From: Nocardioides eburneiflavus
GTDB lineage: Bacteria; Actinomycetota; Actinomycetes; Propionibacteriales; Nocardioidaceae
NCBI RefSeq assembly: GCF_004785795.1
Contig: NZ_SRRO01000001.1
Location: forward strand, 4,712,001-4,776,000
Direction of reading: 5' to 3'
DNA length: 64,000 nucleotides
Below the pieces are notes generated by a model that did no database searches, was not told the DNA's origin, and worked only from the letters and a program-made list of their open reading frames with translations. Each line of letters opens with the position of its first letter. Positions within the stretch are counted from its first letter, which is position 1. This document shows positions 7,042-56,818 of the stretch, piece by piece. The position numbers and the translations under genes were made by a program.

Positions 7042-7179
7042 CGGTCCGTCGTGAGACGGCTGTCTCGGGATCCGGTCGCCCCCGCACGCGACCGAGCCCC
7101 GGGCTCCGCCCCCACGACGGCTCCCGGGGCCCGGTTTCCCCCAGCTGTGTTCCCCTGGCGTTCCCAGGCCCGAACCGGA

Positions 7180-7596
7180 TCAGCAGGCGTACGCCTCCGC
7201 GCCGGCGACGTAGGTGGCGACCATCTGCTCCGGCAGCGGCGAGCCGTCGCCGAAGTACTCCAGGCCGACGCCGTCGGCCCCGTTGGGGTTCGTCCGGCCG
7301 GTGTGCTTCGGGTCCCCGATCGTCATCTTCTCGAAGACCTTGAGGCCGACCGGGAGGCCCGCCTCGCGCAGCGCGGCGTACCCGGCCTCCTCGGCCCCGG
7401 CACAGTCGGCCGTGTAGCCCTCGAAGCCCGCCCCCATCGCGGCCGAGACCACGAACCAGTTGGCCGACGACGGCCCGGTCAGGGAGTACATCGGGACGAA
7501 GCAGTGGTGCGCGCTGGCGCTCGTCGCCGTGAGCGCGACGGCTGCTGCGGCCGCGCCGGCGACGACGCCGAGACGTCGTACGGTGGTGATGCTCAT
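7180..7596 (-). CDS. Small secreted protein of unknown function
   Basis: A 138-residue exported protein. A signal peptide (about residues 5-29, ending ATSASAHHC) is followed by a mature part of about 110 residues with aromatic and glycine-rich segments (FVPMYSLTGPSSANWFVVSAAMGAGFEG) and three cysteines. I recognise no family. ATG 7596 has GAGGGG seven bases upstream, and a GGGACC/GGTCCC hairpin (7616-7634) lies just before that. It stands alone between cimA and the GSDH/PKD gene on the same strand; a GC-rich inverted CCCGGG region at about 7098-7135 follows its stop and may end transcription. Confidence 0.7.
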   Translation of the reverse strand: MSITTVRRLGVVAGAAAAAVALTATSASAHHCFVPMYSLTGPSSANWFVVSAAMGAGFEGYTADCAGAEEAGYAALREAGLPVGLKVFEKMTIGDPKHTGRTNPNGADGVGLEYFGDGSPLPEQMVATYVAGAEAYAC

Positions 7597-7742
7597 GTGG
7601 TGTTCCCCTCGCGATGGGACCCCCTGTAGGTCCCGACACCACCAGTCCAGCGTGGGTGCGGGCCACCGACCACGGTCAGTGACCCGCACACTTCTCGCAC
7701 AGTTCCGCCGCCGCACGGCACGGACCGTGGCCCGACCCGGGC

Positions 7743-10079
7743 CTAGCGGAACCGCGCGGTGAAGGTCTGGCTGGTCGCCGGAGCGACCACGTCGTGGGTC
7801 TGCGCGCCGCCGTCGGACCAGGAGACGAACTGGTAGGTCTTCGAGCCCTTCTTCTGCGGCGCTGGGGCACTGATCGAGTTGGTGGATCCGACGATGACCG
7901 TCCGCGTGAACGACGCCTTGGCGGTGCTCCCGCCGACCGTCAGCGACAGCCCACCCGGATTGGTCTGGAACGTCAGCGACACCGTGCGCGGGTCCAGCCG
8001 GACGCTCCGGGTGGCCTGCATCCCGCCGGAGTCGGTCGCGGTGAGCCTCAGCTCGAGGTGCGAGGGGTACTCGTGGTCCGGAGCGGTGAACGAGCCGCTG
8101 GCCACCCCGGGCCACGTCTGGACCTGGTGGCTGTGGCAGTTCGACGGACAGTGCTGCATCAGCAGCTCCCACGACAGCGCCGAGGGTGGCATGGCGCCGT
8201 CCTGGGCATCGGTCGCGGAGCCGGAGAAGCTGAGGACGTCGCCGACCTTCCACGCGGTCCCGGACGTGGGTGTCTGGATGGTGGGCGTCGGCGCCGTGTT
8301 GCCGACCGAGATGACGAGTGTGTCCGTGGCCGTGAGACCGTCACTGTCCGTGACCCGGAGCGACGCCGCGAAGGTGCCGGAGACGGTGTAGGTGTACGTC
8401 GGCTGCGCGCTCGTCGAGTCGTCGAACGCACCGTCGCCGTCGAGGTCCCAGGCGTGGGTGATCACGTCGCCGGGGTCAGGGTCGTACGACGCGGTGCCGT
8501 CGAACGACACCGTGAGCGGAGCCGCCCCGGACGTGGGCGTCGCGGTGGCCACGGCCACCGGCGCCTGGCCGCCGGCCTCGTAGTGGATGCGCCGGATCGT
8601 CCCGCCGTCGAAGTCGACGTAGAAGAGGTCGCCGCCCGGTCCGACCTGGAGGTTGACGGGGTTCGCCGCACCCGAGACGAAGGTCCGCACGAGACCGGGG
8701 GCCGGCTTGCCGTCGGCGCCCTTGGGCATGACCCAGATGCAGTCCCGGGAGTAGTCGGCGAAGAAGAGCGCGTCGTCGTACTCGGCGGGATAGGAGTGCT
8801 GGCTCGCCGCGAACTCGAACTGCAGCCCGGCCACGGAGGAGCTGCCGGTGGGGCACGTCTCGTTGGGCACCACGCGGTTGCTGTGGTGGTAGGCGTGGTA
8901 CGGCGCGGTCACCGCTCCCGGCGAGGCGTACAGGTTCTCGCACATGGTCAGGTTGGCCGAGTCGTAGCCCGACTGGCGCTGTGCGCCCTCGTAGCAGGGC
9001 CACCCGAAGTTCTGCATCTGTCCGGCCGAGGGGATGACGTTGATCTCTTCCCAGTCGTTCCAGCCGACGTCGCCCACCCAGATCTCGTCCGTTCCGGGCC
9101 GGGGCGTGATCCGGAAGGGGTTGCGCAGCCCGTAGGAGATGATCCGGCGGGCGTTCGGGTCTGCGGAGGCCGCCAGCGGGTTGCCCGCGACGCCGGCGCC
9201 CGTGGCGCGGTCCACGCGGATCACGGTGCCGTCGAGGGACACCGGGTCGCTCGGCGTCCGGAGGTCCTGGCTGCGCAGGGCGCCACCCTCGGCCGTCGGG
9301 GGCGTGAGGGCCGAGCCGACGGTCCCGGGCGGATCGCCGCAGGGGTTCACCGGGGACCCGTCCTGCCCGTAGTCGACGAAGTTGAAGCTGGCGCCGTCGC
9401 CGCCACTGGCGTAGAGGGCGCCGTCCCGGCCGAACTCCACGCTGCCGATCGAGTGGCTCGGGTACTGCTGGCACCAGTCCTCGACCAGTACGTGCTCCGG
9501 ACCCGTCATGGCGTTGCCGCTGGCCTGCAGGCGGGAGAGTCGGCCGCTGACGACGCACCCGTCGGCAGTGGCACCCGGAGGCGTCGGACAGGGATCGGAG
9601 TACACCCCCGGAGTTCCCCACCGCGGGGCCGCGGCGGAGGATCCCAGCACGTGGTCGTAGGTGTAGAGCACGTAGACGTAGGGCTCGGCCGGGAAGCTCG
9701 GATCGAGTGCCATGCCGAGCAGCCCCCGGTCCCAGAAGTTGTGCACGTTGACGTTGAGGTCGGCGAAGACATCGGGCGTCGCGTCGGTGAGCGAGTCGAA
9801 GACCTTGATGACGCCCCGCTTCTCGGCGACGAAGACCCGGCCGTCGGCAGCGAAGCGCACCGCGGTCGGGTTCGTCAGACCACTGAGAACCACCGTCTCC
9901 CGGAAACCGGAGGGCAGGGTGGAGGCGCCACGTGCGTCGGTGCTCCCCAGCGCGACGAAGGCGGCACTGCTGGCCGCCAGGAGAGTGACGAGGAGGATCC
10001 GCCATCGCGCCAGGCCCGCTGGGGATCCGGGACCTGCGACCACGCGTCCCGTTGCCGTGATGATCGCCATGCGAGTCAT
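7743..10079 (-). CDS. Secreted PQQ-dependent sugar dehydrogenase-like protein with PKD domain
   Basis: A 778-residue exported protein. After a signal peptide (about residues 22-50), residues about 55-515 form a glucose/sorbosone dehydrogenase beta-propeller (LSGLTNPTAVRFAADGRVFVAEKRG, RNPFRITPRPGTDEIWVGDVGWNDWEEIN, FGWPCYEG, QFEFAASQHSYPAEYDDALFFADY). A PKD domain follows (about 517-605: APLTVSFDGTASYDPDPGD...WDLDGDGAFDD). The last 80 residues resemble bacterial surface repeats with FVSWSDGG. The propeller family oxidises sugars using PQQ, but no PQQ synthesis genes are in view, so substrate and cofactor remain open. It is probably a wall-associated or secreted carbohydrate-active protein. 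Confidence 0.85.
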   Translation of the reverse strand: MTRMAIITATGRVVAGPGSPAGLARWRILLVTLLAASSAAFVALGSTDARGASTLPSGFRETVVLSGLTNPTAVRFAADGRVFVAEKRGVIKVFDSLTDATPDVFADLNVNVHNFWDRGLLGMALDPSFPAEPYVYVLYTYDHVLGSSAAAPRWGTPGVYSDPCPTPPGATADGCVVSGRLSRLQASGNAMTGPEHVLVEDWCQQYPSHSIGSVEFGRDGALYASGGDGASFNFVDYGQDGSPVNPCGDPPGTVGSALTPPTAEGGALRSQDLRTPSDPVSLDGTVIRVDRATGAGVAGNPLAASADPNARRIISYGLRNPFRITPRPGTDEIWVGDVGWNDWEEINVIPSAGQMQNFGWPCYEGAQRQSGYDSANLTMCENLYASPGAVTAPYHAYHHSNRVVPNETCPTGSSSVAGLQFEFAASQHSYPAEYDDALFFADYSRDCIWVMPKGADGKPAPGLVRTFVSGAANPVNLQVGPGGDLFYVDFDGGTIRRIHYEAGGQAPVAVATATPTSGAAPLTVSFDGTASYDPDPGDVITHAWDLDGDGAFDDSTSAQPTYTYTVSGTFAASLRVTDSDGLTATDTLVISVGNTAPTPTIQTPTSGTAWKVGDVLSFSGSATDAQDGAMPPSALSWELLMQHCPSNCHSHQVQTWPGVASGSFTAPDHEYPSHLELRLTATDSGGMQATRSVRLDPRTVSLTFQTNPGGLSLTVGGSTAKASFTRTVIVGSTNSISAPAPQKKGSKTYQFVSWSDGGAQTHDVVAPATSQTFTARFR

Positions 10080-13781: not shown

Positions 13782-15216
13782 ATGATCGACGGACTGGCAG
13801 CCGAGGCACGAGGGGTCGCAGACGACCTCTCACCCGCCGACCTGCTCGCCACGATCAAGGCCTCCCGCGACGTCGAGAACACCGAGGCCGCCCGCCAGCT
13901 CGCTCTCGCCGCCCGGTGGGCCGACCTGCACCCGCCGGAGTCGATCCACGACGCGGCGTCGTTCACGGTGCCCGGGTCCCAGCACGAGGAACCCATCGCC
14001 GGTGAGGGTGCCCCGCTGGTGGCGGAGTTCTGTTGCGCCGAGCTCGGCACCGTCCTCGGCATCACCGTCGACCGCGGCGAAGAAGCTCATCGGTCACGCC
14101 CTCGAGCTGCGCCACCGCCTGCCGCGGTTGTGGGAGCAGGTCCACGCAGGTGCGGTGCCCGCCTGGCGGGCCCGGGCGGTCGCGGACACCACCATCCACT
14201 CCACCCCTCCCCTCACCGCCGAGGCGGCCGGGTTCGTCGACGCGCAGGTCGCCGCCGTCGCCGGACGGGTCGGCACCGCGCAGCTCGACCGCCTCGTCGC
14301 CGAGACCATCAGGCGCTACGACCTCGCGACCGCCGACCCCACGCAGGACCCGGAGGACGGCTACCTGCACGTCGACCCCCGCCACGTCACCGTCGACACC
14401 GACGACGTGCACTACGCCGGCACCCTGCGGATCGAGGCCGAGGTCGACATCGCCGACGCCCTCGACCTCGACCGCGCCCTCGCCCACCACGCCGAGACCC
14501 TGAAGGCCCTCGGGTCGCTGCTGCCGCTCGACGCCCGCCGGGCCAAGGCCCTCGGGGACCTCGCCAGGACGCAGACCGCGCTCGAGCTCGCGTGCCAGGG
14601 TGCCGACGCCGCCGCCGATATCGACGAGCCGGACCTGCCGGCCGCCCGCGCGGTCGTGATCCACGCCCACTTCGACGCATCCGTCTCCGGCGACACCACG
14701 GTGTTCGGTCCCACCGGGAGGATGGAGAACGGCCAGCGCCTGGTCCTGCTCGAGCAGGTCCAGTCCTGGTGCGCCGACACCCGCACCGAGGTCACCATCA
14801 AGCCCGTCATCGACCTCAACACCACGCTGACCGCGCAGACGCGGAAGGTCCCGGCGACGATCCGCGAACACGTGATCCTGAGAGATCGCACGTGCGTGTT
14901 CCCGCGATGCACCCGCCCGGCACGGCGCTGCGACGTCGACCACGTCATCCCGTGGGACGACGACGCCGAGGCCGAGGGCCGCCCGCAACCCGGCCCGACG
15001 ACCACGAGCAACCTGGCCTGCCTGTGCCGGTTCCACCACCGCCTCAAGACCCACTCGCCCTGGCGCTACGAGATGACCACCCCCGGGATCTTCGAGTGGA
15101 CCTCACCCCATGGCCACCGCTACCGCCGCGACCACACCGGCACCACCGACCTCGACCCACCAGATCCGCCGGACCTGGCAATCCCACCCGGCCTCCCGCG
15201 ACCACGCCGACGATGA
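13782..15216 (+). pseudogene. DUF222/HNH endonuclease gene interrupted by a one-base frameshift
   Basis: The first frame (from ATG 13782) gives a DUF222 N-terminus, MIDGLAAEARGVADDLSPAD to ...ELGTVLGITVD, and then breaks. The second frame continues it without loss from AAKKLIGHALELRHRLPRLW to the stop at 15216. Removing one C at 14072-14073 joins them into about 477 residues, a usual length. The C-terminal HNH nuclease is intact: CVFPRCTRPARRCDVDHVIPW, then NLACLCRFHHRLKTH. TAGGAT (13769-13774) lies seven bases before the ATG, suggesting a leaderless promoter. It may be a real recent mutation or a sequencing error in a C pair. Such genes are multicopy in Nocardioides and relatives; their role is unclear. 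Confidence 0.85.
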
Positions 15217-48829: not shown

Positions 48830-49618
48830 TCAGCCCGGACGTACGACCGCGCGCCGGGCCGCGCGACGCAGGGTGGTGAGGATCGCCGGGCCGAGGACGA
48901 CGATCGCGACGGCGGTGGTGATCGCGCGTCCCGTGTCCCAGCCGCCGGTCGAGGTCAGCAACGTGTAGACGAGGAAGCGGTGCGCGTTCTCGAGCACCGG
49001 CGCGCCGGCGACGTACGCCAGTGAGCCCTCGTGGCCGGGCACCACGATGCCGAGCGCGAACGGCCACGAGCTGAGGTTCATCAGCAGGCCGTAGAGGTAG
49101 GAGGCGACGACCGCGTAGGCGGCCAGCATCGCGATCTCCGCCCGACCGCCGACCCGGCGCGGCAGCAGCCCCGCGCCCATCCCCACCCACGCCGCGCAGA
49201 TCATCTGGAAGGGCAGCCACGGCCCGACGCCCGCCGCGAGGAGGGCCGAGGCGAACAATGACGTGCAGCCGAGCGCGAAGCCGAAGCCGGCCCCGAACAC
49301 GCGGCCGCCCAGGACCAGCAGGAAGAACACCAGCTCGATGCCGGCCGTGCCCGCGCCGAGGCCGCGCATCACCGCGTTGATCGCGGACAGCACGCCGAGG
49401 ACGGCCAGGACCCGCGAGTCCATGCCGCCCTCGCCCATCTCGGCCAGGACGACGACCATCACGAGCGGGAGCAGCGCCAGGAAGACGAAGGGCGGGTCCA
49501 CCCGCTGGCCCGGCTGCGCCTCGAGCAGCAACGGCCAGCACAGCATCATCAGCCCGGCCGCCGACGCCAGGACGAGCACCGCGGCGGTCCGCGGGCCGAT
49601 GGGGAGGGCGACGTTCAC
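48830..49618 (-). CDS. ECF transporter S component, probable B12-type
   Basis: A 262-residue membrane protein with six or so helices. It has the small integral substrate-binding (S) subunit character: short loops, GRVFGAGFGFALGCTSLFASALLAAGVGPWLPFQMICAAWVGMGAGLLP and a C-terminal GRAITTAVAIVVLGPAILTTLRRAARR. It is GTGA-coupled to the double ATPase gene and thus is the last gene of the riboswitch-controlled unit. The substrate is inferred as cobalamin from the upstream riboswitch and the transcobalamin-like secreted proteins; sequence alone would only say S component. The GTG start is fixed by the overlap. Confidence 0.8.
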   Translation of the reverse strand: MNVALPIGPRTAAVLVLASAAGLMMLCWPLLLEAQPGQRVDPPFVFLALLPLVMVVVLAEMGEGGMDSRVLAVLGVLSAINAVMRGLGAGTAGIELVFFLLVLGGRVFGAGFGFALGCTSLFASALLAAGVGPWLPFQMICAAWVGMGAGLLPRRVGGRAEIAMLAAYAVVASYLYGLLMNLSSWPFALGIVVPGHEGSLAYVAGAPVLENAHRFLVYTLLTSTGGWDTGRAITTAVAIVVLGPAILTTLRRAARRAVVRPG

Positions 49619-51216
49619 CGGGTGGCTCCGTCCAGTGCCGCCGCGACTTCCTCGACGACCAGCCACGGCGCGCCGAGCACCTTGGTGACCTGCGGTGCGA
49701 AGGCCGGCGACTCCGCCAGCACACGACGGGGAGGTCCGCTGGAGACGACCTCGCCCTCGGCCATCACGACGACCTCGTCCGCGACGTGCGCGGCGAACTC
49801 GACGTCGTGCGTGGCGAGCAGGACCGCGTGGCCGTCGGCGGTCAGGTCGGCGACGATCCGCGCCAGCTCCGCCTTGCCGGCGTAGTCCAGGCCGCGGGTC
49901 GGCTCGTCGAGGAGCACCACCGGGGGCCGCGCGGTGAGCACGACCGACAGCGCGAGTGCCAGGCGCTGGCCCTCGGAGAGGTCGCGCGGGTGGAGGCCGT
50001 CCTCGATGCCCGGGGCGAGGCGGCCGAGGAGGCCGCGGCAGGTGCCGGTGTCGACCTCGGCCCCGACGTCGGCCGCGGCGCACTCGTCGGCGACCGTCTC
50101 GAGGTAGAGCAGGTCGGCCGCGGTCTGCGGGACCAGGCCGACGTGCATACGCCGCTGGGCGGGTGCGAGCTCCGCGGGATCGCTCCCGGCGACCTCGATC
50201 GAGCCGGAGCGGCGCCGCCCGGAGCCCTGGAGCGCCCAGATCAGGCTCGACTTCCCCGAGCCGTTGCGTCCCATCAGCACGGTCGTGCGGCCGCGCGACA
50301 GGGTCAGGTCGACGCCCCGGACGGCGACGTGTCGCCCGCGCACGACCGTGACCCCGCGGGCCACCATCACCGCCTGCGGGCCGGGCGCGCCGGCCGCCTC
50401 GACCGGCCCGGGGGCGGGCAGGTCCGGGAGCGTACGGGCGTGGCGGCGGGCGTCGCGCACCGTGAGCGGGAGGGGCTGCCACCCGGCGAGCCGACCGAGC
50501 TCGACCAGCGGAGGCGCGACGGGCGAGTCGGCGAGCACCGACCTCGGGTCGCCGACCCGTACGCCGCCCTCGCCCGTGACCAGGCAGATCCGGTCGGCGA
50601 ACGGCACCACCCGCTCCAGTCGGTGCTCGGCGAGCAGGACGGTCAGGCCCAGGTCGTGCACGAGGCGCGTGATCGTCGCCAGGACATCCTCCGCGGCCGT
50701 CGGGTCGAGCGCCGAGGTCGGCTCGTCGAGCACCAGCACCCGCGGGTGGGTGGTGAGCACGGCACCGATCGCGACCCGCTGCTGCTGGCCGCCGGAGAGC
50801 GTGCGCAGGTCCCGCGCACGCAGGTCGGCGATCCCGAGCAGGTCGAGGGTCTCCTCCACGCGCCGCCGCATGGTCTCGGGCGCGGTGCCCAGCTGCTCCA
50901 TCCCGTAGGCGAGCTCCTCCTCGACGGTGTCGGCGACGAACCCCGCCAGCGGGTCCTGGCTCACGTAGCCGACCAGGTGGGCGCGCTCGCGCGGCGGCTG
51001 CGCGACGATGCTCCGCCCCTCGAGCAGCACGTCGCCGGTCAGCACGCCGCCGGTGAACCGGGGCACGAGGCCGGTGACCACGCCGAGGAGCGTCGACTTG
51101 CCCACGCCCGTACGGCCGGACACGAGCACCAGCTCCCCCTCGTCGAGGGTGAGGTCGACCCGGTCGAGCACGACCTGCTCGTCGTAGTGGAAGCCGATCC
51201 CGCGCAGCTCGATCAT
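49615..51216 (-). CDS. ECF transporter energising ATPase with two fused ABC domains
   Basis: A 533-residue protein with two complete ABC domains in one chain. Domain 1: Walker A SGRTGVGKST, signature LSGGQQQR, Walker B VLVLDEPTSALDP. Domain 2: Walker A MGRNGSGKSS, signature LSEGQRLALAL, Walker B VVLLDEPTRGLD. This replaces the separate EcfA/EcfA' pair. It powers the T and S subunits. The ATG overlaps the T-component stop (ATGA), and the next start overlaps its own stop (GTGA), so translation is coupled on both sides. Confidence 0.93.
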   Translation of the reverse strand: MIELRGIGFHYDEQVVLDRVDLTLDEGELVLVSGRTGVGKSTLLGVVTGLVPRFTGGVLTGDVLLEGRSIVAQPPRERAHLVGYVSQDPLAGFVADTVEEELAYGMEQLGTAPETMRRRVEETLDLLGIADLRARDLRTLSGGQQQRVAIGAVLTTHPRVLVLDEPTSALDPTAAEDVLATITRLVHDLGLTVLLAEHRLERVVPFADRICLVTGEGGVRVGDPRSVLADSPVAPPLVELGRLAGWQPLPLTVRDARRHARTLPDLPAPGPVEAAGAPGPQAVMVARGVTVVRGRHVAVRGVDLTLSRGRTTVLMGRNGSGKSSLIWALQGSGRRRSGSIEVAGSDPAELAPAQRRMHVGLVPQTAADLLYLETVADECAAADVGAEVDTGTCRGLLGRLAPGIEDGLHPRDLSEGQRLALALSVVLTARPPVVLLDEPTRGLDYAGKAELARIVADLTADGHAVLLATHDVEFAAHVADEVVVMAEGEVVSSGPPRRVLAESPAFAPQVTKVLGAPWLVVEEVAAALDGATR

Positions 51217-52340
51217 GCGATCGCCTCCCGGCGGACCGGGGCGCTCGCCGGGACCGGCGTCGCGAATGCAGGCAGGGTGCCGATCACGCCGAGCAGCAGC
51301 GCCAGCGGCGAGAGGTACGGGACGACGTCGACGCCGGGGTGGGCGACGACGACCTGGGTGTGGGCGAGGTACCAGCCCAGCACCGCGACGAGCACGCCCA
51401 CGCCCGTGGTGAGCAGCTCGGGCCCGCGCCACGGGTCGGGGCGGTAGCGGGTGCGCGGCACGCGACGTCCCGCGCTGAGCAGGCCGACCACCGCGACGAC
51501 CACGCCCGCGCCCAGCATCGGGAGCGCCAGGACGCGGGGCGCGGTGGGGTCGAGCCAGGCGTACGTGCCGACGCAGATGCCGGTGAGGGCGAGGAGCAGC
51601 AGCGACCCGGTCACCCACCGTTCGCGGGTCGACGCACCGCCGGAGCGGCCGTAGCCGCGGGTGTCCATGCCCGCGGCGAGCGCCAGGGACCGCTCGAGCG
51701 CGTCCTCGAGGACGGGGACGAGGAACCGACGCAGCCGGCCGGCCCCTGTCGTGGTCCCGCCCCTCAGCGCCTGAGCGGCGCGCACGCGGCGCGCGCTGTC
51801 GGCCAGCTGGGGGAAGATCGTCACGGCCACCACGAGCGCGGTGCCGATCTCGTAGAGCGCCGGCGGCACCGAGGCGAGCAGGCGCTTGGGGTTCGCGAGC
51901 GAGTTGGCGGCGCCGACGCAGAGGATCACCGCAGCCAGCCGCAGCCCGTCGTACAGCCCGGCCAGCAGCGCCTCGCTGGTCACCGGGCCGAGCAGCCGGA
52001 CCCCGGCCGCCCACGCAGGCAGCGGGATCTCCGGGAGGTCGACGAGCACGTGGCCGACCTGCTGCCCGCCGAACAGGATGCGGAACACCACCCGCAGCAC
52101 GACCGTGACGGCCGCGAGGAGTGCGTAGAGCCGGAACGAGCGGCCGAACGGGTGGCCCGACCGGCGAGCCATGACGACCAGCGTCGCGGACCCCATCACC
52201 AGCACGAGCAGCAGCGGGTTGGTGGTGAGCGACGCAGCGGTGGCCAGACCGACCGCCCAGGCCCACCAGGCCAGAGGGTGCAGGTCACGTGCCAGGCCGG
52301 GACGGGTCGTCCCGGGACGAGTCGTCGCCGAGTCGGTCAC
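51213..52340 (-). CDS. ECF transporter T component (CbiQ-like)
   Basis: A 375-residue membrane protein. The coupling helices that contact the ATPases carry the EcfT-type signatures RRVRAAQALRG and LAAGMDTRGYGR (about residues 190-238). Helices precede and follow them, and the C-terminal 100 residues add three or four more helices than CbiQ normally has, so the protein is long for the family. The GTG start overlaps the DUF4430 gene stop (GTGA) and fixes its position in the operon. Confidence 0.88.
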   Translation of the reverse strand: MTDSATTRPGTTRPGLARDLHPLAWWAWAVGLATAASLTTNPLLLVLVMGSATLVVMARRSGHPFGRSFRLYALLAAVTVVLRVVFRILFGGQQVGHVLVDLPEIPLPAWAAGVRLLGPVTSEALLAGLYDGLRLAAVILCVGAANSLANPKRLLASVPPALYEIGTALVVAVTIFPQLADSARRVRAAQALRGGTTTGAGRLRRFLVPVLEDALERSLALAAGMDTRGYGRSGGASTRERWVTGSLLLLALTGICVGTYAWLDPTAPRVLALPMLGAGVVVAVVGLLSAGRRVPRTRYRPDPWRGPELLTTGVGVLVAVLGWYLAHTQVVVAHPGVDVVPYLSPLALLLGVIGTLPAFATPVPASAPVRREAIA

Positions 52341-53371
52341 GACGCGCCGGGCTCCCGCCGACGACGGGCCACGAGTGCGCTCACCGCGACGGCTGCGCCC
52401 AGCAGGCCGAGGGCTCCCCAGGTCACGGCCGCCGGGACCTTCGTCGGTCCGTCGGCGGCCGGCTGACCGGCGGCCGGGACGTCGCTTGCCGTTGAGTCTC
52501 CAGGAGACTCACGGGTCTCCGCGGCGGGGTCGTCCGGGTCGCTTGCCGGTGAGTCTCCAGGAGACTCACGGTCGTCGGACCCCTTCTTGTTGCGCCCGCC
52601 CGAGCCGGCCGGGGACCTTGAGTCTCCAGGAGACTCACTGGCAAGGGGCGACTCGGACGGGGTGCCGGAGGCCGACGCCGAGGGGCTCGACGACGGGGAC
52701 GACGACTCGGGGCTGTCGTCGCTCGAGGGGGACGGGCTCGACGGGGAGCCACCGCGCGGCCCGCCACCGGACCCACCGCCGCTCGAGGGAGAGGAGGACG
52801 GAGAGGAGGACGGAGAGGAGGACGGAGAACTGGTCGGCGCGGAGGACGGCGACGACGACGGCGCAGGGGTCGCGACCGGCGGGGCGACGCCGGGAGGTAC
52901 GGCGTTGCCGCTGCCCTGCTTCCACGCCCAGCCGACCGAGCCGCCGGCCGGGACCGTCAGGGAGCCCGAGCTGTACGACGAGTAGGTCCACGATCCCGAC
53001 GTCCCGTCGGACCACCACAGGCCCCAGTACGCGTCGGGGGGCGAGGTGTTGACGCAGGGGTCGCTTGCAGGGACGCCGTTGACGCGACACACGAACCCGG
53101 GCTGGCGCTGGGCGTAGTCGAGGCTCACGCCCACCGACGCGACGATCGCCGTGGCGCTCTTGCCTCCGCCGTCGGCGGCGCAGGCGGTGAACGCTGGGCC
53201 GCCGAGCTCGCGGTAGTCGACGACCACGCTGACGCCGCCGCCGGAGGTGCAGGTGGCCGCTCCGGCGGCGGGCAGGACCGTGGTCGGCCCGAGGCCGAGC
53301 ACCACGGCGGCACCGACGAGGCCGGCGGCCACGGACGCGGCCACCCGCCGAGCCCCGGCTCCCATCGTCAT
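52337..53371 (-). CDS. Membrane-anchored DUF4430 (transcobalamin C-terminal-like) protein
   Basis: A 344-residue surface protein. After a signal peptide (about residues 8-38), residues about 40-155 form a DUF4430 domain with paired cysteines and the aromatic motif YWGLWWSDGTSGSWTYSSY. In InterPro this domain is named for its resemblance to the C-terminal beta domain of transcobalamin. A 140-residue Ser/Pro/Gly linker follows, then a membrane helix (about 318-337) and an RRRR anchor. Three copies of the TGAGTC...GACTCA palindrome are read through within the linker as RESPGDS-type peptides. The start overlaps the previous gene's stop (TGATG). A role in holding cobalamin near the ECF transporter is inferred. 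Confidence 0.82.
   Translation of the reverse strand: MTMGAGARRVAASVAAGLVGAAVVLGLGPTTVLPAAGAATCTSGGGVSVVVDYRELGGPAFTACAADGGGKSATAIVASVGVSLDYAQRQPGFVCRVNGVPASDPCVNTSPPDAYWGLWWSDGTSGSWTYSSYSSGSLTVPAGGSVGWAWKQGSGNAVPPGVAPPVATPAPSSSPSSAPTSSPSSSPSSSPSSSPSSGGGSGGGPRGGSPSSPSPSSDDSPESSSPSSSPSASASGTPSESPLASESPGDSRSPAGSGGRNKKGSDDRESPGDSPASDPDDPAAETRESPGDSTASDVPAAGQPAADGPTKVPAAVTWGALGLLGAAVAVSALVARRRREPGAS
52485..52513. repeat. Palindromic element copy 3, inside the DUF4430 coding region
   Basis: CTTGCCGTTGAGTCTCC-A-GGAGACTCACGG: the core GAGTCTCC/GGAGACTC is perfect. On the coding (minus) strand it is translated as part of RESPGDSTASD. Confidence 0.75.
52542..52571. repeat. Palindromic element copy 4, inside the DUF4430 coding region
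   Basis: CTTGCCGGTGAGTCTCC-A-GGAGACTCACGG, nearly identical to copy 3 and 57 bases away. It is translated as RESPGDSPASD. Confidence 0.75.
52617..52646. repeat. Palindromic element copy 5, opposite orientation, inside the DUF4430 coding region
   Basis: CCTTGAGTCTCC-A-GGAGACTCACTGGCAAGG: same core, but now the TGCC-type arm is on the right, so it is inverted relative to copies 3 and 4. It is translated as LASESPGDSRS. Its truncated left arm matches copy 2. Confidence 0.75.
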
Positions 53372-55101
53372 CACTTTCGACGCAGCCAGAACTTCGTGGT
53401 CACGGGCTCGGCACCGCGCACGGTCTGCGTGGCCACGACACGCATCCGCTTCTTCCCGAGGACGGCACGCGCGGGCTTGGTGAGCCGGAGCGTGACCCTG
53501 GCGGTCCTGCCGGGCTCGACCGAGTACGCCGACTTCGCCACGACCAGCCTGGCCAGGGTGCCGTCGGCGCGCTCGACCTTGCCGGCCGTGCGGACCTTCA
53601 GCTTGCCGGCGCAGGCCACAACGCCGTCGCAGGCGACGGCGACCTTGAAGCGGTCGTTGCGGCCGACCTTCTCGACCTTCGCGACTGCCAGGTCGCCGAC
53701 GACCGGGGAGGGCGCGACCGGCGCGACCGGCGTGGCCGTCGCAGCGGTGGTCGCGGTGGTGGCGGTGGCAGACCCGGTGAGCGTCGTGACCCGGAACGTG
53801 TGCGCCAGAGCGCCGGCGGGCAACGTGAACGTGACGGGCACGACCGAGCCGGTGCCGGTCACCGGCGTGGCCCGACCCCCGAGGCTGACGCAGGCGGGCT
53901 CGCCGGCGCCCAGGCCGGCGACGCTGACCGTGACCGTGCTCTTCTCGACGGCGGTGGCCGGAGCCGACAGGCTGACCTCGCTGCCGGCCGGGACGTGGGC
54001 CAGCGCCGGGAGTGCCTGCGCGGTCGCCCGGCGCGCCAGCTCGCGGAGCGGCACGGAGAACGATCCCGCGGTGCGGGCGGTCGTCAGGTCGGCGGGCTTG
54101 TAGGCGACCGCGCCGTTGTCGGCCGACAGCACGCTCGCGCACGGTGCGAGGTCGGCGACCTGGACTCCGCGGAGCCACGCGGCGGCCTTCGTCGCGGCGC
54201 CGTCGTGGCCGGCCACGGCGAGTGCCCAGCCGGCCAGTCCGGTGGTGTTGGAGTTGATGCCGAGGGCGCCGGCGCTGAACGACCCGTCGGCAGCCTGCTG
54301 GGACCGCAGCCAGCTCGCTGCCAGGTGGGCGGCGCCCCTGGCCGTGGTCGAGGCCTCGGGGGTCCCGAGGATGTTGATGACGGCGAGCGCGGTCGTGTCG
54401 ACCTCGCCCGTGTCGGTCTGGGGGTCGCAGCCCTGGTCCGTGGCGGTCTTGTCCACGGTGAGGGCGGCGCGGAAGAAGCCGGCGTTGCACTGCTGCTCGA
54501 GCAGGAAGGCGGTGGCATCGCCCGCTCGTGGTGAGCCGGCGTGCGTGAGGGCACGCACGGCGAAGGACTGAGAGATCACGTTGACGAAGTCAGCGTCGAA
54601 GGGGTCGGCCGGGTCGACTCCGGCGTCCTGGAGTCGGCCGGTCACAGGCGCCTCGGAGGACACCAGTCCCTCGAGGCGATCGACCTGGTCGGTCCCGTTG
54701 TAGGACTCCGGGTTCCGGTCAGCCGCCTGCACGACGGCGACCATCTTGGCCACGCTGCCGGCGTAGACACGGCTGGAGGGGAAGCCGGCGACCCACTTCT
54801 CCACGTCAGGCTCGATGGCGTCGACGACCTGGGTGACCGCGGCCTCGTGGCCGCCGACGACGTCGAGGGCGAAGGCGATGTCGGCGGACAGGCCGAGGTC
54901 GTCGAAGTCGTACTCCTCGTTGTGCAGCACGCCGCCGGTGAGCTGGTCCTGCAGCCAGGTGGCGCCGGCGGACACGGCGCGCTCGCCTGCCGACTGCCCG
55001 GCCGCCGCGGTGGCAGGAGCGGCGTTGACGAGGGTCGCGGTGAGGGTCGCGGTGAGGGTGACGGCGACCGTGGCGGAGGCCAACCCTGGGGTGAGCTTCA
55101 T
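53371..55101 (-). CDS. Secreted alpha/alpha-barrel protein, transcobalamin N-domain-like
   Basis: A 576-residue exported protein. A signal peptide (about residues 8-34) precedes an alpha/alpha-barrel of prenyltransferase/squalene-oxidase type repeats (about 40-340): QQCNAGFFRAALTVDK, DTTALAVINIL, SQQAADGSFSAG and NSNTTGLAGWALA. This fold is shared by the cobalamin-binding N-domain of transcobalamin and intrinsic factor. No DxDD or other terpene cyclase acid is present, so cyclase activity is unlikely. The C-terminal 230 residues are beta-rich Ig-like modules. ATG 55101 follows GGAGGAAATC, and the SD sits in a hairpin. It is the first gene after the B12 riboswitch. Cobalamin binding is inferred. 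Confidence 0.8.
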   Translation of the reverse strand: MKLTPGLASATVAVTLTATLTATLVNAAPATAAAGQSAGERAVSAGATWLQDQLTGGVLHNEEYDFDDLGLSADIAFALDVVGGHEAAVTQVVDAIEPDVEKWVAGFPSSRVYAGSVAKMVAVVQAADRNPESYNGTDQVDRLEGLVSSEAPVTGRLQDAGVDPADPFDADFVNVISQSFAVRALTHAGSPRAGDATAFLLEQQCNAGFFRAALTVDKTATDQGCDPQTDTGEVDTTALAVINILGTPEASTTARGAAHLAASWLRSQQAADGSFSAGALGINSNTTGLAGWALAVAGHDGAATKAAAWLRGVQVADLAPCASVLSADNGAVAYKPADLTTARTAGSFSVPLRELARRATAQALPALAHVPAGSEVSLSAPATAVEKSTVTVSVAGLGAGEPACVSLGGRATPVTGTGSVVPVTFTLPAGALAHTFRVTTLTGSATATTATTAATATPVAPVAPSPVVGDLAVAKVEKVGRNDRFKVAVACDGVVACAGKLKVRTAGKVERADGTLARLVVAKSAYSVEPGRTARVTLRLTKPARAVLGKKRMRVVATQTVRGAEPVTTKFWLRRK

Positions 55102-55108
55102 GATTTCC

Positions 55109-55131
55109 TCCCTCGCCGCGACAGCGAGGGA
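55109..55131 (-). promoter_or_regulatory. Ribosome-site-sequestering hairpin below the B12 riboswitch
   Basis: TCCCTCGC (55109-55116) and GCGAGGGA (55124-55131) are perfect complements around a seven-base loop. In the RNA the 3' arm runs into GGAGG, the ribosome site of the barrel gene (complement of 55107-55111), so the stem hides the site. It fits a translational expression platform. Confidence 0.6.
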
Positions 55132-55194
55132 ATCGGCACGTGCCGGTCCGCCTCGCTGCATTCCTCGACAGCGATGGTGATCAAGACGCGTCGA

Positions 55195-55318
55195 GGTGGG
55201 TGTTCCGGCTCGCACGGGATCGCTCCCGTGCCCACGGTTGCGGGTCAGCGCCGGTGTTGGACCGGCTTTCCCCAGCTCGGGCGTGTGTGGTGCCGACCCG
55301 GGCGGGTGCGGCCTGCGA
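55195..55318 (-). promoter_or_regulatory. Cobalamin (B12) riboswitch
   Basis: On the minus strand the conserved core reads GGGGAAAGCCGG...CCGGCGCTGACCCGCAACCGTG (complement of 55232-55273), matching the B12 riboswitch core GGGAAnnCGGTG...CCGGnGCTGnCCCGCAACTGT. A peripheral hairpin CACGGGA/TCCCGTG (55213-55230) and a B12-box-like AGCCGGAACACCCACC (55197-55212) follow. GGTCGGCACCAC lies on the 5' side as in the family. A TACGCT hexamer (55319-55324) may be the -10 box. It controls the barrel-DUF4430-ECF operon. Confidence 0.88.
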
Positions 55319-55345
55319 AGCGTAACCCTCCCGCACCCCCGGACG

Positions 55346-55383
55346 CACTCCGGCCCGGCGTCTCGGGACGCCGGGCCGGAGTG
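55346..55383. terminator. Terminator hairpin after the first barrel gene
   Basis: A perfect 17-bp stem (55346-55362 with 55367-55383) around a TCGG loop, 26 bases past the stop of the upstream barrel gene and directly before the riboswitch promoter. It separates the two barrel genes. Confidence 0.88.
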
Positions 55384-55408
55384 GTGTGTGGCTGGTGGAG
55401 CTGGTGGG

Positions 55409-56818
55409 TCAGTTGCGCACGCGGATCGACGTACGTGCCTCGTCGTCCGAGGTCTTCACCAGTCCGACGCGGCGCTGGTTGCCCGTCGGCAGCTGGAGCT
55501 TGCGGACGATCTTGTCTCCGGACTTCTTGCCCTTCACGCGCACGAAGTCGCCCTTGACCTGCATGCAGGCGCTCTCGCTCGGCGCGAGGCCGTAGAGGCG
55601 GAACTGGACGCGGTCACCGGCGCGGGCCTCCTTGCGCACCGACACGATGCGGAGCTTGTCCTTGCTGGCGGGGGCGAACTGCAGGCCCAGGATCGCCTGC
55701 GCGGTGGCACGGCGCCACTCGTCACGGCCGTCGGCGGGGATGCCGCTGGTCTTGGACGCGGTGACCCGGTCCGGGCGGAAGGCCACCGCACCGGTGTCCT
55801 TGGTCAGCGCGGTGCGGCAGCGGTACTTGTCGACCGGCTGGTTCCTGCGGACCCAGAGCGCCGCCTTGAGGGCCGCGTCGCGGTTCTTCAGCAGGCCCAT
55901 CGCGTAGCCGCCGACGGCGGTCGTGTTGGTGTTGATCTGCGCCCCCTGCCCCGCGCTGCGGATCGCGCCACTGCGGCGCTGGCGCGCGTCCAGCCAGGCG
56001 CCGGCCTTGGCGAGGGCGGTCGTCACGGCCGCGCTCTTGTCGCCCGACTCGACCAGGTTGATCACCGCGAGCGCGGTGGCGTCCGGGTCTGCCTCGCTGC
56101 CGGCGACGCCGTCGGTGCATGCCTGGCTGGGCACGTCGGCCTTGTCGAAGTTGAGCCGGAACGCACCCGACGCGCACTGCTGCTTGAGCAGGAAGTCGCG
56201 CGCCGCACCCGCCTCGGCGGAGTTGGCCAGCGACAGCGCGCGCACGGCGTAGGACTGGCCCACCACGTTGGCGTAGTTGCCGAACTCGGACTTGTCGAAG
56301 ATCCGGCCCGCGATGGCGGCGGCCTGCGGCTCGGCCGCCGGGTCGGCCGGCACGTTGGCCGTGCGCTCCTCGAGGCGGGTGATCAGGTTGACACCGCCGT
56401 AGCTGGTCGGGTTCTTCTTGGCCGTGCGGGCGAAGGCGGCTGCCTTGGCCAGCGGGCCGGCGTAGCTCTCCTTGGTCCCGTCACCGACGTAGTCGGCGAT
56501 GCGGGGCTCCAGGGCGTTGTTGATCGCCGTCACCGTCGCACCTTGGCGAGCGACGGTCGACACGGCCATGCCGGTGTCGATGGTGAGCCCGAAGTCGGGG
56601 CCGGAGGTGCCCATCATCAGGCCGTTGGTGAGCTCGTCGGAGATCCACTCCGCCGCGATCGTGGAGGGCGTGCTGTCGGTGGCGGCCGCGGCCTTGGCCG
56701 CGCGCAGCGCGGGCGACGGCTCCGCGGAGGCGGGCGGAGCGGCGAGCACGCCGACCCCGAGCGCCGCGGTCGACAGGGCGACGGCGGCCGTACGGATGGG
56801 TCGAATGCGATGGTGCAT
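55409..56818 (-). CDS. Second secreted alpha/alpha-barrel protein, paralogue without a riboswitch
   Basis: A 469-residue exported protein. Signal peptide about residues 10-32 (ALGVGVLAAPPASA), barrel repeats in the middle: QQCASGAFRLNFDK, DATALAVINLV, NTNTTAVGGYAMGLL, all parallel to those in the downstream paralogue (QQCNAGFFRAALTV, DTTALAVINIL, NSNTTGLAGWALA). The C-terminal 80 residues are beta-rich and basic. ATG 56818 follows AAGGAAG. A terminator follows it and no riboswitch core is seen upstream, so it is regulated separately. It may be another cobalamin or ligand-binding surface protein; this is inferred from its paralogue. Confidence 0.78.
   Translation of the reverse strand: MHHRIRPIRTAAVALSTAALGVGVLAAPPASAEPSPALRAAKAAAATDSTPSTIAAEWISDELTNGLMMGTSGPDFGLTIDTGMAVSTVARQGATVTAINNALEPRIADYVGDGTKESYAGPLAKAAAFARTAKKNPTSYGGVNLITRLEERTANVPADPAAEPQAAAIAGRIFDKSEFGNYANVVGQSYAVRALSLANSAEAGAARDFLLKQQCASGAFRLNFDKADVPSQACTDGVAGSEADPDATALAVINLVESGDKSAAVTTALAKAGAWLDARQRRSGAIRSAGQGAQINTNTTAVGGYAMGLLKNRDAALKAALWVRRNQPVDKYRCRTALTKDTGAVAFRPDRVTASKTSGIPADGRDEWRRATAQAILGLQFAPASKDKLRIVSVRKEARAGDRVQFRLYGLAPSESACMQVKGDFVRVKGKKSGDKIVRKLQLPTGNQRRVGLVKTSDDEARTSIRVRN

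Follow-up and report, generated by a model that had tools for sequence, protein, structure and literature searches.

In the actinobacterium Nocardioides eburneiflavus (genome of 4,998,011 bases), a minus-strand operon at positions 48,830–56,818 of a 64,000-nucleotide stretch (contig NZ_SRRO01000001.1, positions 4,712,001–4,776,000; hereafter the window, by whose numbering coordinates are given) probably encodes a system for the capture and import of corrinoids (vitamin B12). Corrinoid uptake by this operon is very likely, while the more specific proposal of a two-chain surface clasp that hands its ligand to the importer is evenly balanced. The reading draws on gene order and its conservation, association with a riboswitch, the fold of a beta domain, the toroid class of its partner, the importer subunits, natural fusions, related genomes without the corrin-ring enzyme CbiC, and linkage to the only gene for a B12-binding domain in certain genomes.

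On the minus strand, an open reading frame (ORF) read as gatB is followed by bar1, a cobalamin-riboswitch core, bar2, a DUF4430-like gene, and genes for the T component, fused double ATPase and S component of an energy-coupling factor (ECF) transporter. Every stop codon from bar2 onward overlaps the following start, which confirms the overlapping barrel–DUF4430–T–double ATPase–S run described, with all its parts, in the initial annotation made from the letters alone. The riboswitch does precede this run, but the order given there has to be amended: two toroid-type genes are present, with the riboswitch between them and bar1 upstream. The named loci closest to the operon are those of Nocardioides.

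The riboswitch core lies at 55,196–55,278. A default Rfam scan of the window returned no match, and a permissive scan placed RF00174 at 55,198–55,272 with 26.5 bits against a gathering score of 31.5 (E = 0.0012 for an 8.7-kb stretch). A hand-made pattern matched upstream at 20 of 80 related loci (denoted by L numbers, and genomes by G numbers), and the window plus 17 of these 20 (L055, L061 and L073 were not taken) formed a seed alignment from which L081 and L082 (misplaced) and L054 and L058 (near-duplicates) were removed, leaving 14 rows, the window and 13 loci. The resulting covariance model scored the window core at 102.7 bits, versus 11.4 for the next window match, a score that is not independent because the window copy is among the 14 training rows; the model revealed no other riboswitch in the window. 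Independent support comes from recurrence in relatives and from covariation. The core was found 5' of the beta-domain gene at 77 of the 80 loci, including 64 of the 67 outside the training set, and the three misses (L074, L098 and L102) have a contig end close upstream. Across 1.46 Mb the model gave 82 matches, 81 on the operon strand and one weak match elsewhere. Pair counts covered the window plus 64 loci, the remaining 16 of the 80 being 13 close relatives and the 3 loci without a match; in the 69 aligned copies, 99.3% of cells were paired, four pairs had changed on both sides, and 16 cells carried two-sided changes. For four of five covariation measures, none of 500 shuffles reached the observed value, in an alignment that was fitted to the structure and retains kinship. 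The conserved RF00174 core with compensatory pair changes, in this model-fitted alignment, and its recurrence thus bear out the B12 riboswitch core proposed earlier, though the window copy itself falls under the Rfam cut-off. Folding of the window leader predicted a hairpin on the bar2 ribosome-binding site (55,108–55,132), a possible expression platform, and comparison by eye found similar arms in 17 related leaders; the position of this hairpin suggests translational control. Four related loci (L066, L068, L108 and L124) carry two riboswitch copies inside one operon, ahead of different genes.

When 396 genomes of the phylum were searched with a beta-domain profile of 11 rows, 45 gave a match. 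Among the 44 besides the host, the 29 with a best E of at most 4.6e-6 were examined and the 15 weaker ones left out. RF00174 (E up to 0.1) was found upstream on the same strand, 185–2,980 bases away, in 22 of these 29 genomes; by hand count, the linked match exceeded the Rfam cut-off in 14 of the 22. Thirteen genomes had a single RF00174 match, and in 12 of them it was the operon-linked one. No linked match was found in seven (G335, G322, G362, G268, G008, G225 and G343), of which G335 has a contig beginning 283 bases upstream of the locus. All 29 genomes encode B12-binding domains, CbiC was detected in five (5 of the 25 that are at least 90% complete), and the riboswitch lies upstream of the locus in 17 of the 24 without CbiC. 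In G268, G008, G225 and G343, which have no RF00174 match, the sole gene of the genome with a B12-binding domain lies 6.8, 3.9, 6.4 and 4.1 kb, respectively, from the beta-domain gene, which provides an independent link to B12. This gene is metH in G008 (TIGR02082, 1339 bits) and, judging from ORF length, would be metH in the other three as well.

The DUF4430-like gene (52,337–53,371) encodes 344 amino acids comprising a transcobalamin-like beta domain (52,859–53,263 as modelled), a Ser/Pro-rich linker and a C-terminal hydrophobic segment. A Pfam DUF4430 (PF14478) match was found neither in the window protein nor in the host genome; 61 family members including the window's gave none at E up to 1 and none reaching the gathering score, and among 35 diverse members a single match appeared (E = 0.14). 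Profiles were also compared with certified PF14478 members: the diverse set A7 reached E = 3.8e-7 with a score of 41.7, against at most 21.3 for shuffles, and the Nocardioides-dominated set A4 reached only 16% probability (E = 0.0016). Searches of solved structures with the Nocardioides and diverse profiles yielded chance matches only. The predicted structure of the beta domain has the transcobalamin-type beta-grasp fold. The protein has a hydrophobic N-terminus, and its C-terminal hydrophobic segment is followed by arginines, features from which we infer export and membrane tethering. The membrane-anchored DUF4430 protein of the initial annotation is therefore upheld by profile–profile comparison and fold, but does not reach Pfam's DUF4430 family. 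The linker-coding stretch contains three copies of a 17-base inverted repeat, GAGTCTCC(A/T)GGAGACTC (52,494–52,510, 52,551–52,567 and 52,620–52,636), which is present at five sites genome-wide including these three and in none of 100 window shuffles; a looser form is present in 15 of the 80 related loci. Sub-cut-off matches to mir-136 and mir-873 in the permissive Rfam scan correspond to these linker palindromes and were discarded. At one locus, L130 of genome G171 (7134–8177 and 13982–14128), a gene for the divergent type of beta-domain protein is accompanied by one for a DUF4430 protein certified by PF14478, and this second gene lies downstream of both the S gene and a barrel gene.

The two barrel genes, bar1 (55,409–56,818; 469 amino acids; upstream of the riboswitch and not under its control here) and bar2 (53,371–55,101; 576 amino acids; the first gene under the riboswitch), encode proteins that are 35% identical and, each having a hydrophobic N-terminus, are predicted to be exported. 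Neither alone reaches any Pfam cut-off. The best solved-structure matches of the barrel family profile are squalene-hopene cyclases (E = 2.7e-15), alongside thioester domains of complement or macroglobulin proteins, with matches spanning about 50–90 of 536 positions; at E up to 1, 68 barrels matched TED_complement in 51 cases, Prenyltrans in 29 and Cobalamin_bind in 2. These matches indicate that the barrels likely belong to the broad alpha/alpha-toroid class. The NCBIfam family NF053823 (SCO2321 family) was matched by 54 of the 68 at E up to 0.001, bar1 scoring 50 bits and both window barrels lying far below the 300-bit cut-off. The secreted alpha/alpha barrel reported from the letters thus stands as a toroid-class protein, by family profile over part of its length, whereas sequence comparison did not establish the suggested kinship with the transcobalamin toroid. 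In ORFs of five relatives (L131, L135, L137, L138 and L146), toroid and beta domain occur in one chain; in the four fusions scanned, cell-wall-binding repeats are present in two and S-layer repeats in one. The L131 fusion ends in a putative transmembrane segment, and that of L138 has a weak Cobalamin_bind match (E = 0.0058, below the cut-off). A further apparent fusion, the database protein P0192, was judged to result from a frame error and was not counted. Such natural fusions support joint action of the two domains. Of the 20 genomic contexts fetched, 15 include a barrel, either fused or as a separate protein.

The importer itself comprises a CbiQ-family T component (51,213–52,340; 375 amino acids; PF02361, 30.1 bits against a cut-off of 25), a fused double ATPase (49,615–51,216; 533 amino acids; PF00005 in two stretches) and an S component with several hydrophobic segments (48,830–49,618; 262 amino acids), for which PF07155 scored only 14.3 bits against a cut-off of 26.7. 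A CbiQ-type T subunit and two ECF ATPases are thus clearly recognized by Pfam beside the barrel and DUF4430-like genes, as first annotated, with the S component below its cut-off. S components often diverge beyond the reach of sequence search. Several of 120 listed relatives carry PF12822, and one source names P0309 CbrT. At L147, L148 and L149, the beta-domain gene adjoins an ORF of about 1,000 amino acids that ATPase or S queries match and that appears to encode a fused ECF transporter.

Based on these features, the following sequence of events may be envisaged. When intracellular B12 is low, the riboswitch would leave the bar2 ribosome-binding site open. Bar2 would be exported, as would the DUF4430-like protein, which a long flexible linker would hold at the membrane. 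By analogy with transcobalamin, the toroid and the beta-grasp domain, in this case two chains, may then close around one corrinoid, and the loaded complex would pass it to the S component, with the dedicated T and double-ATPase subunits powering import.

Several observations weigh against this reading. Besides the sub-threshold Rfam score of the window riboswitch, the fifth covariation measure, further pair types, was reached by 235 of 500 shuffles. Comparison of the barrel profile with solved structures brought up no transcobalamin at E values up to 10, and the transcobalamin toroid family, PF01122, matched neither window barrel and only 2 of 68 barrels weakly (best E = 0.012). Barrels are not universal, none having been found at L134, L145, L147, L148 and L149; the last three belong to three of the four riboswitch-free genomes with a nearby B12-domain gene. 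In two of these four genomes, G268 and G008, the phylum beta-domain match crosses one stop, and the open frames there still match the profile. G322, G362 and G335 show neither a linked riboswitch nor a B12-domain gene on the same contig. Compared with solved structures, the S profile matched no CbrT and gave chance matches only, and the folate S family FolT was weakly matched by 10 of 24 S proteins (best E = 5.5e-5). Finally, CbiC is present in the host, where ORFs read as cob genes also lie next to riboswitch matches; the host probably makes B12 itself, so that its operon would supplement synthesis. One such match (G000:C1:1277312-1277492) is weak, at 20.2 bits and below the cut-off, and is adjoined by ORFs read as a cobyrinate amidase/CobC fusion and the cobalt transporter CbtA.

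Four other explanations were considered. Import of cobalt for B12 synthesis would agree with the CbiC of the host and with B12 riboswitches on record ahead of cobalt-uptake genes (PMC2667541, in the passages cited), but is very unlikely, since 24 of 29 relatives with the locus are without CbiC, 17 of these 24 keeping the riboswitch upstream, and since in four genomes lacking the riboswitch the locus is linked to the only B12-domain gene; the predicted transcobalamin fold of the beta domain and the presence of an ORF read as CbtA beside another weak riboswitch match of the host genome point the same way. The weak FolT matches would accommodate transport of another vitamin such as folate, which the riboswitch association, the sole-gene linkage and the transcobalamin fold together make extremely improbable.

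Closer to corrinoid import, and overlapping with it, is the proposal that the ligand is a corrinoid precursor or another cobamide (cobinamide or pseudo-B12) destined for salvage and remodelling; the riboswitch senses the end product rather than the imported ligand, and the cited part of PMC5997447 has ECF-CbrT taking cobinamide as well, yet no result here separates cobamides, and we regard this version as unlikely. The barrel could instead be an enzyme or an unrelated surface protein, leaving B12 to the beta domain and the ECF importer. The squalene-hopene cyclase matches, the divergence of bar2 far beyond that of its neighbours and the five barrel-free contexts would suit such a role, whereas predicted export, the five toroid–beta fusions and the distribution of the DxDD cyclase motif, which only 27 of 68 barrels have at the aligned position, speak against it. 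A class II terpene cyclase was judged unlikely, and a barrel standing apart from B12 handling is quite improbable in general. Corrinoid capture and import remains the preferred reading. Of the transcobalamin-like system first proposed, the analysis supports B12 control, the beta fold, the toroid class of the partner and the ECF importer; sequence comparison did not bear out kinship of the toroid with that of transcobalamin, and B12 binding by the two halves, the specificity of the S component and the hand-over are predicted features.

The two barrels appear to differ in history. In a quick tree of 100 barrels with long branches (rows with stops or fewer than 250 residues were left out), bar1 groups with barrels of L066, L067, L075, L081, L082 and L109 (27 rows, support 100), those of the latter five being single barrels behind the riboswitch, and bar2 copies form two distinct groups (13 and 7 rows). 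The riboswitch stands both before and after the bar1-type barrel in L066, and bar1 lies ahead of the riboswitch in L060. This pattern fits duplication of riboswitch and barrel together, followed by loss of the first riboswitch in the group of the window. Bar1 is 93% identical to its N. ganghwensis counterpart. Among 20 genomes with both barrels, mean identity is 78.0% for bar1, 49.4% for bar2 and 79.7% for the beta domain, and 87.3%, 87.6% and 91.0% for T, double ATPase and S. For L048, L049 and L059, bar2 shows a lower silent distance (0.09–0.16) than the remaining operon genes in the same pairs (0.18–0.70), which suggests that species have recently exchanged bar2. Positive selection on this gene was rejected: the median omega of 0.76 is derived from saturated distances, and the closest pairs give about 0.2–0.45. 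Tentatively, and with considerable doubt, the toroid half may be pictured as an exchangeable cassette of a surface capture complex serving the ECF importer, with conserved, riboswitch-free bar1 acting basally, divergent, horizontally exchanged and riboswitch-induced bar2 tuning cobamide choice or escaping phages or competitors, and the split halves being living relatives of those of animal transcobalamin.

As ECF importers are generally described, substrate binding takes place at the S component itself, with no additional protein for capture; a dedicated clasp at the cell surface, if true, would add a step to this picture. The operon would also offer a candidate B12 importer for actinobacteria found without CbiC (24 of 29), and bacteria, mostly environmental Nocardioides, whose counterparts of the two transcobalamin halves are open to study one at a time. 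Such separate halves are relevant to the suggestion that the transcobalamin-like proteins of animals came from bacteria (PMC1796856). In the passages cited, the same work (Burroughs et al. 2007) describes bacterial transcobalamin-like beta-grasp domains, toroid-fused and in CbiO/CbiQ operons, for which B12 scavenging was predicted, in a clade mainly of low-GC Gram-positives and planctomycetes and less often archaea. The general idea was therefore already predicted in 2007, and what is new relative to those passages is the split, riboswitch-controlled actinobacterial form, whose details open the idea to testing. This operon is absent from the matches listed in the open-licence literature, weak evidence given that subscription papers mostly lie outside it; among those matches, SCO2321 is named only in work on a skin-delivery peptide (PMC9237094).

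With the SLBB systems of PMC1796856, as portrayed in those passages, the window shares secreted toroid and beta-grasp domains, CbiO/CbiQ genes, predicted B12 scavenging and, in some of them, a second paralogous surface protein. Those systems are toroid–beta fusions for which the passages name no riboswitch, whereas the window encodes separate chains under a riboswitch, in a high-GC actinobacterium, and its beta domain has diverged beyond the reach of Pfam. The NCBIfam SCO2321 family membrane protein (NF053823), from whose cut-off the window barrels lie far, bears a name that gives no function. ECF-CbrT of Lactobacillus delbrueckii, a proven B12 importer in Lactobacillus (PMC5997447, cited part), has in common with the window its ECF architecture and B12 as the predicted substrate; unlike it, the window encodes dedicated T and fused ATPase subunits beside the S gene, together with capture proteins, and its S component has no detectable sequence match to a solved CbrT. 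Animal transcobalamin, haptocorrin and intrinsic factor share the beta-domain fold and the toroid class, but the single animal-type chain of toroid and beta domain is replaced in the window by separate genes, with a membrane tether and no PF01122 toroid match, and the complex would be coupled to an ECF importer where the animal proteins are coupled to a receptor.

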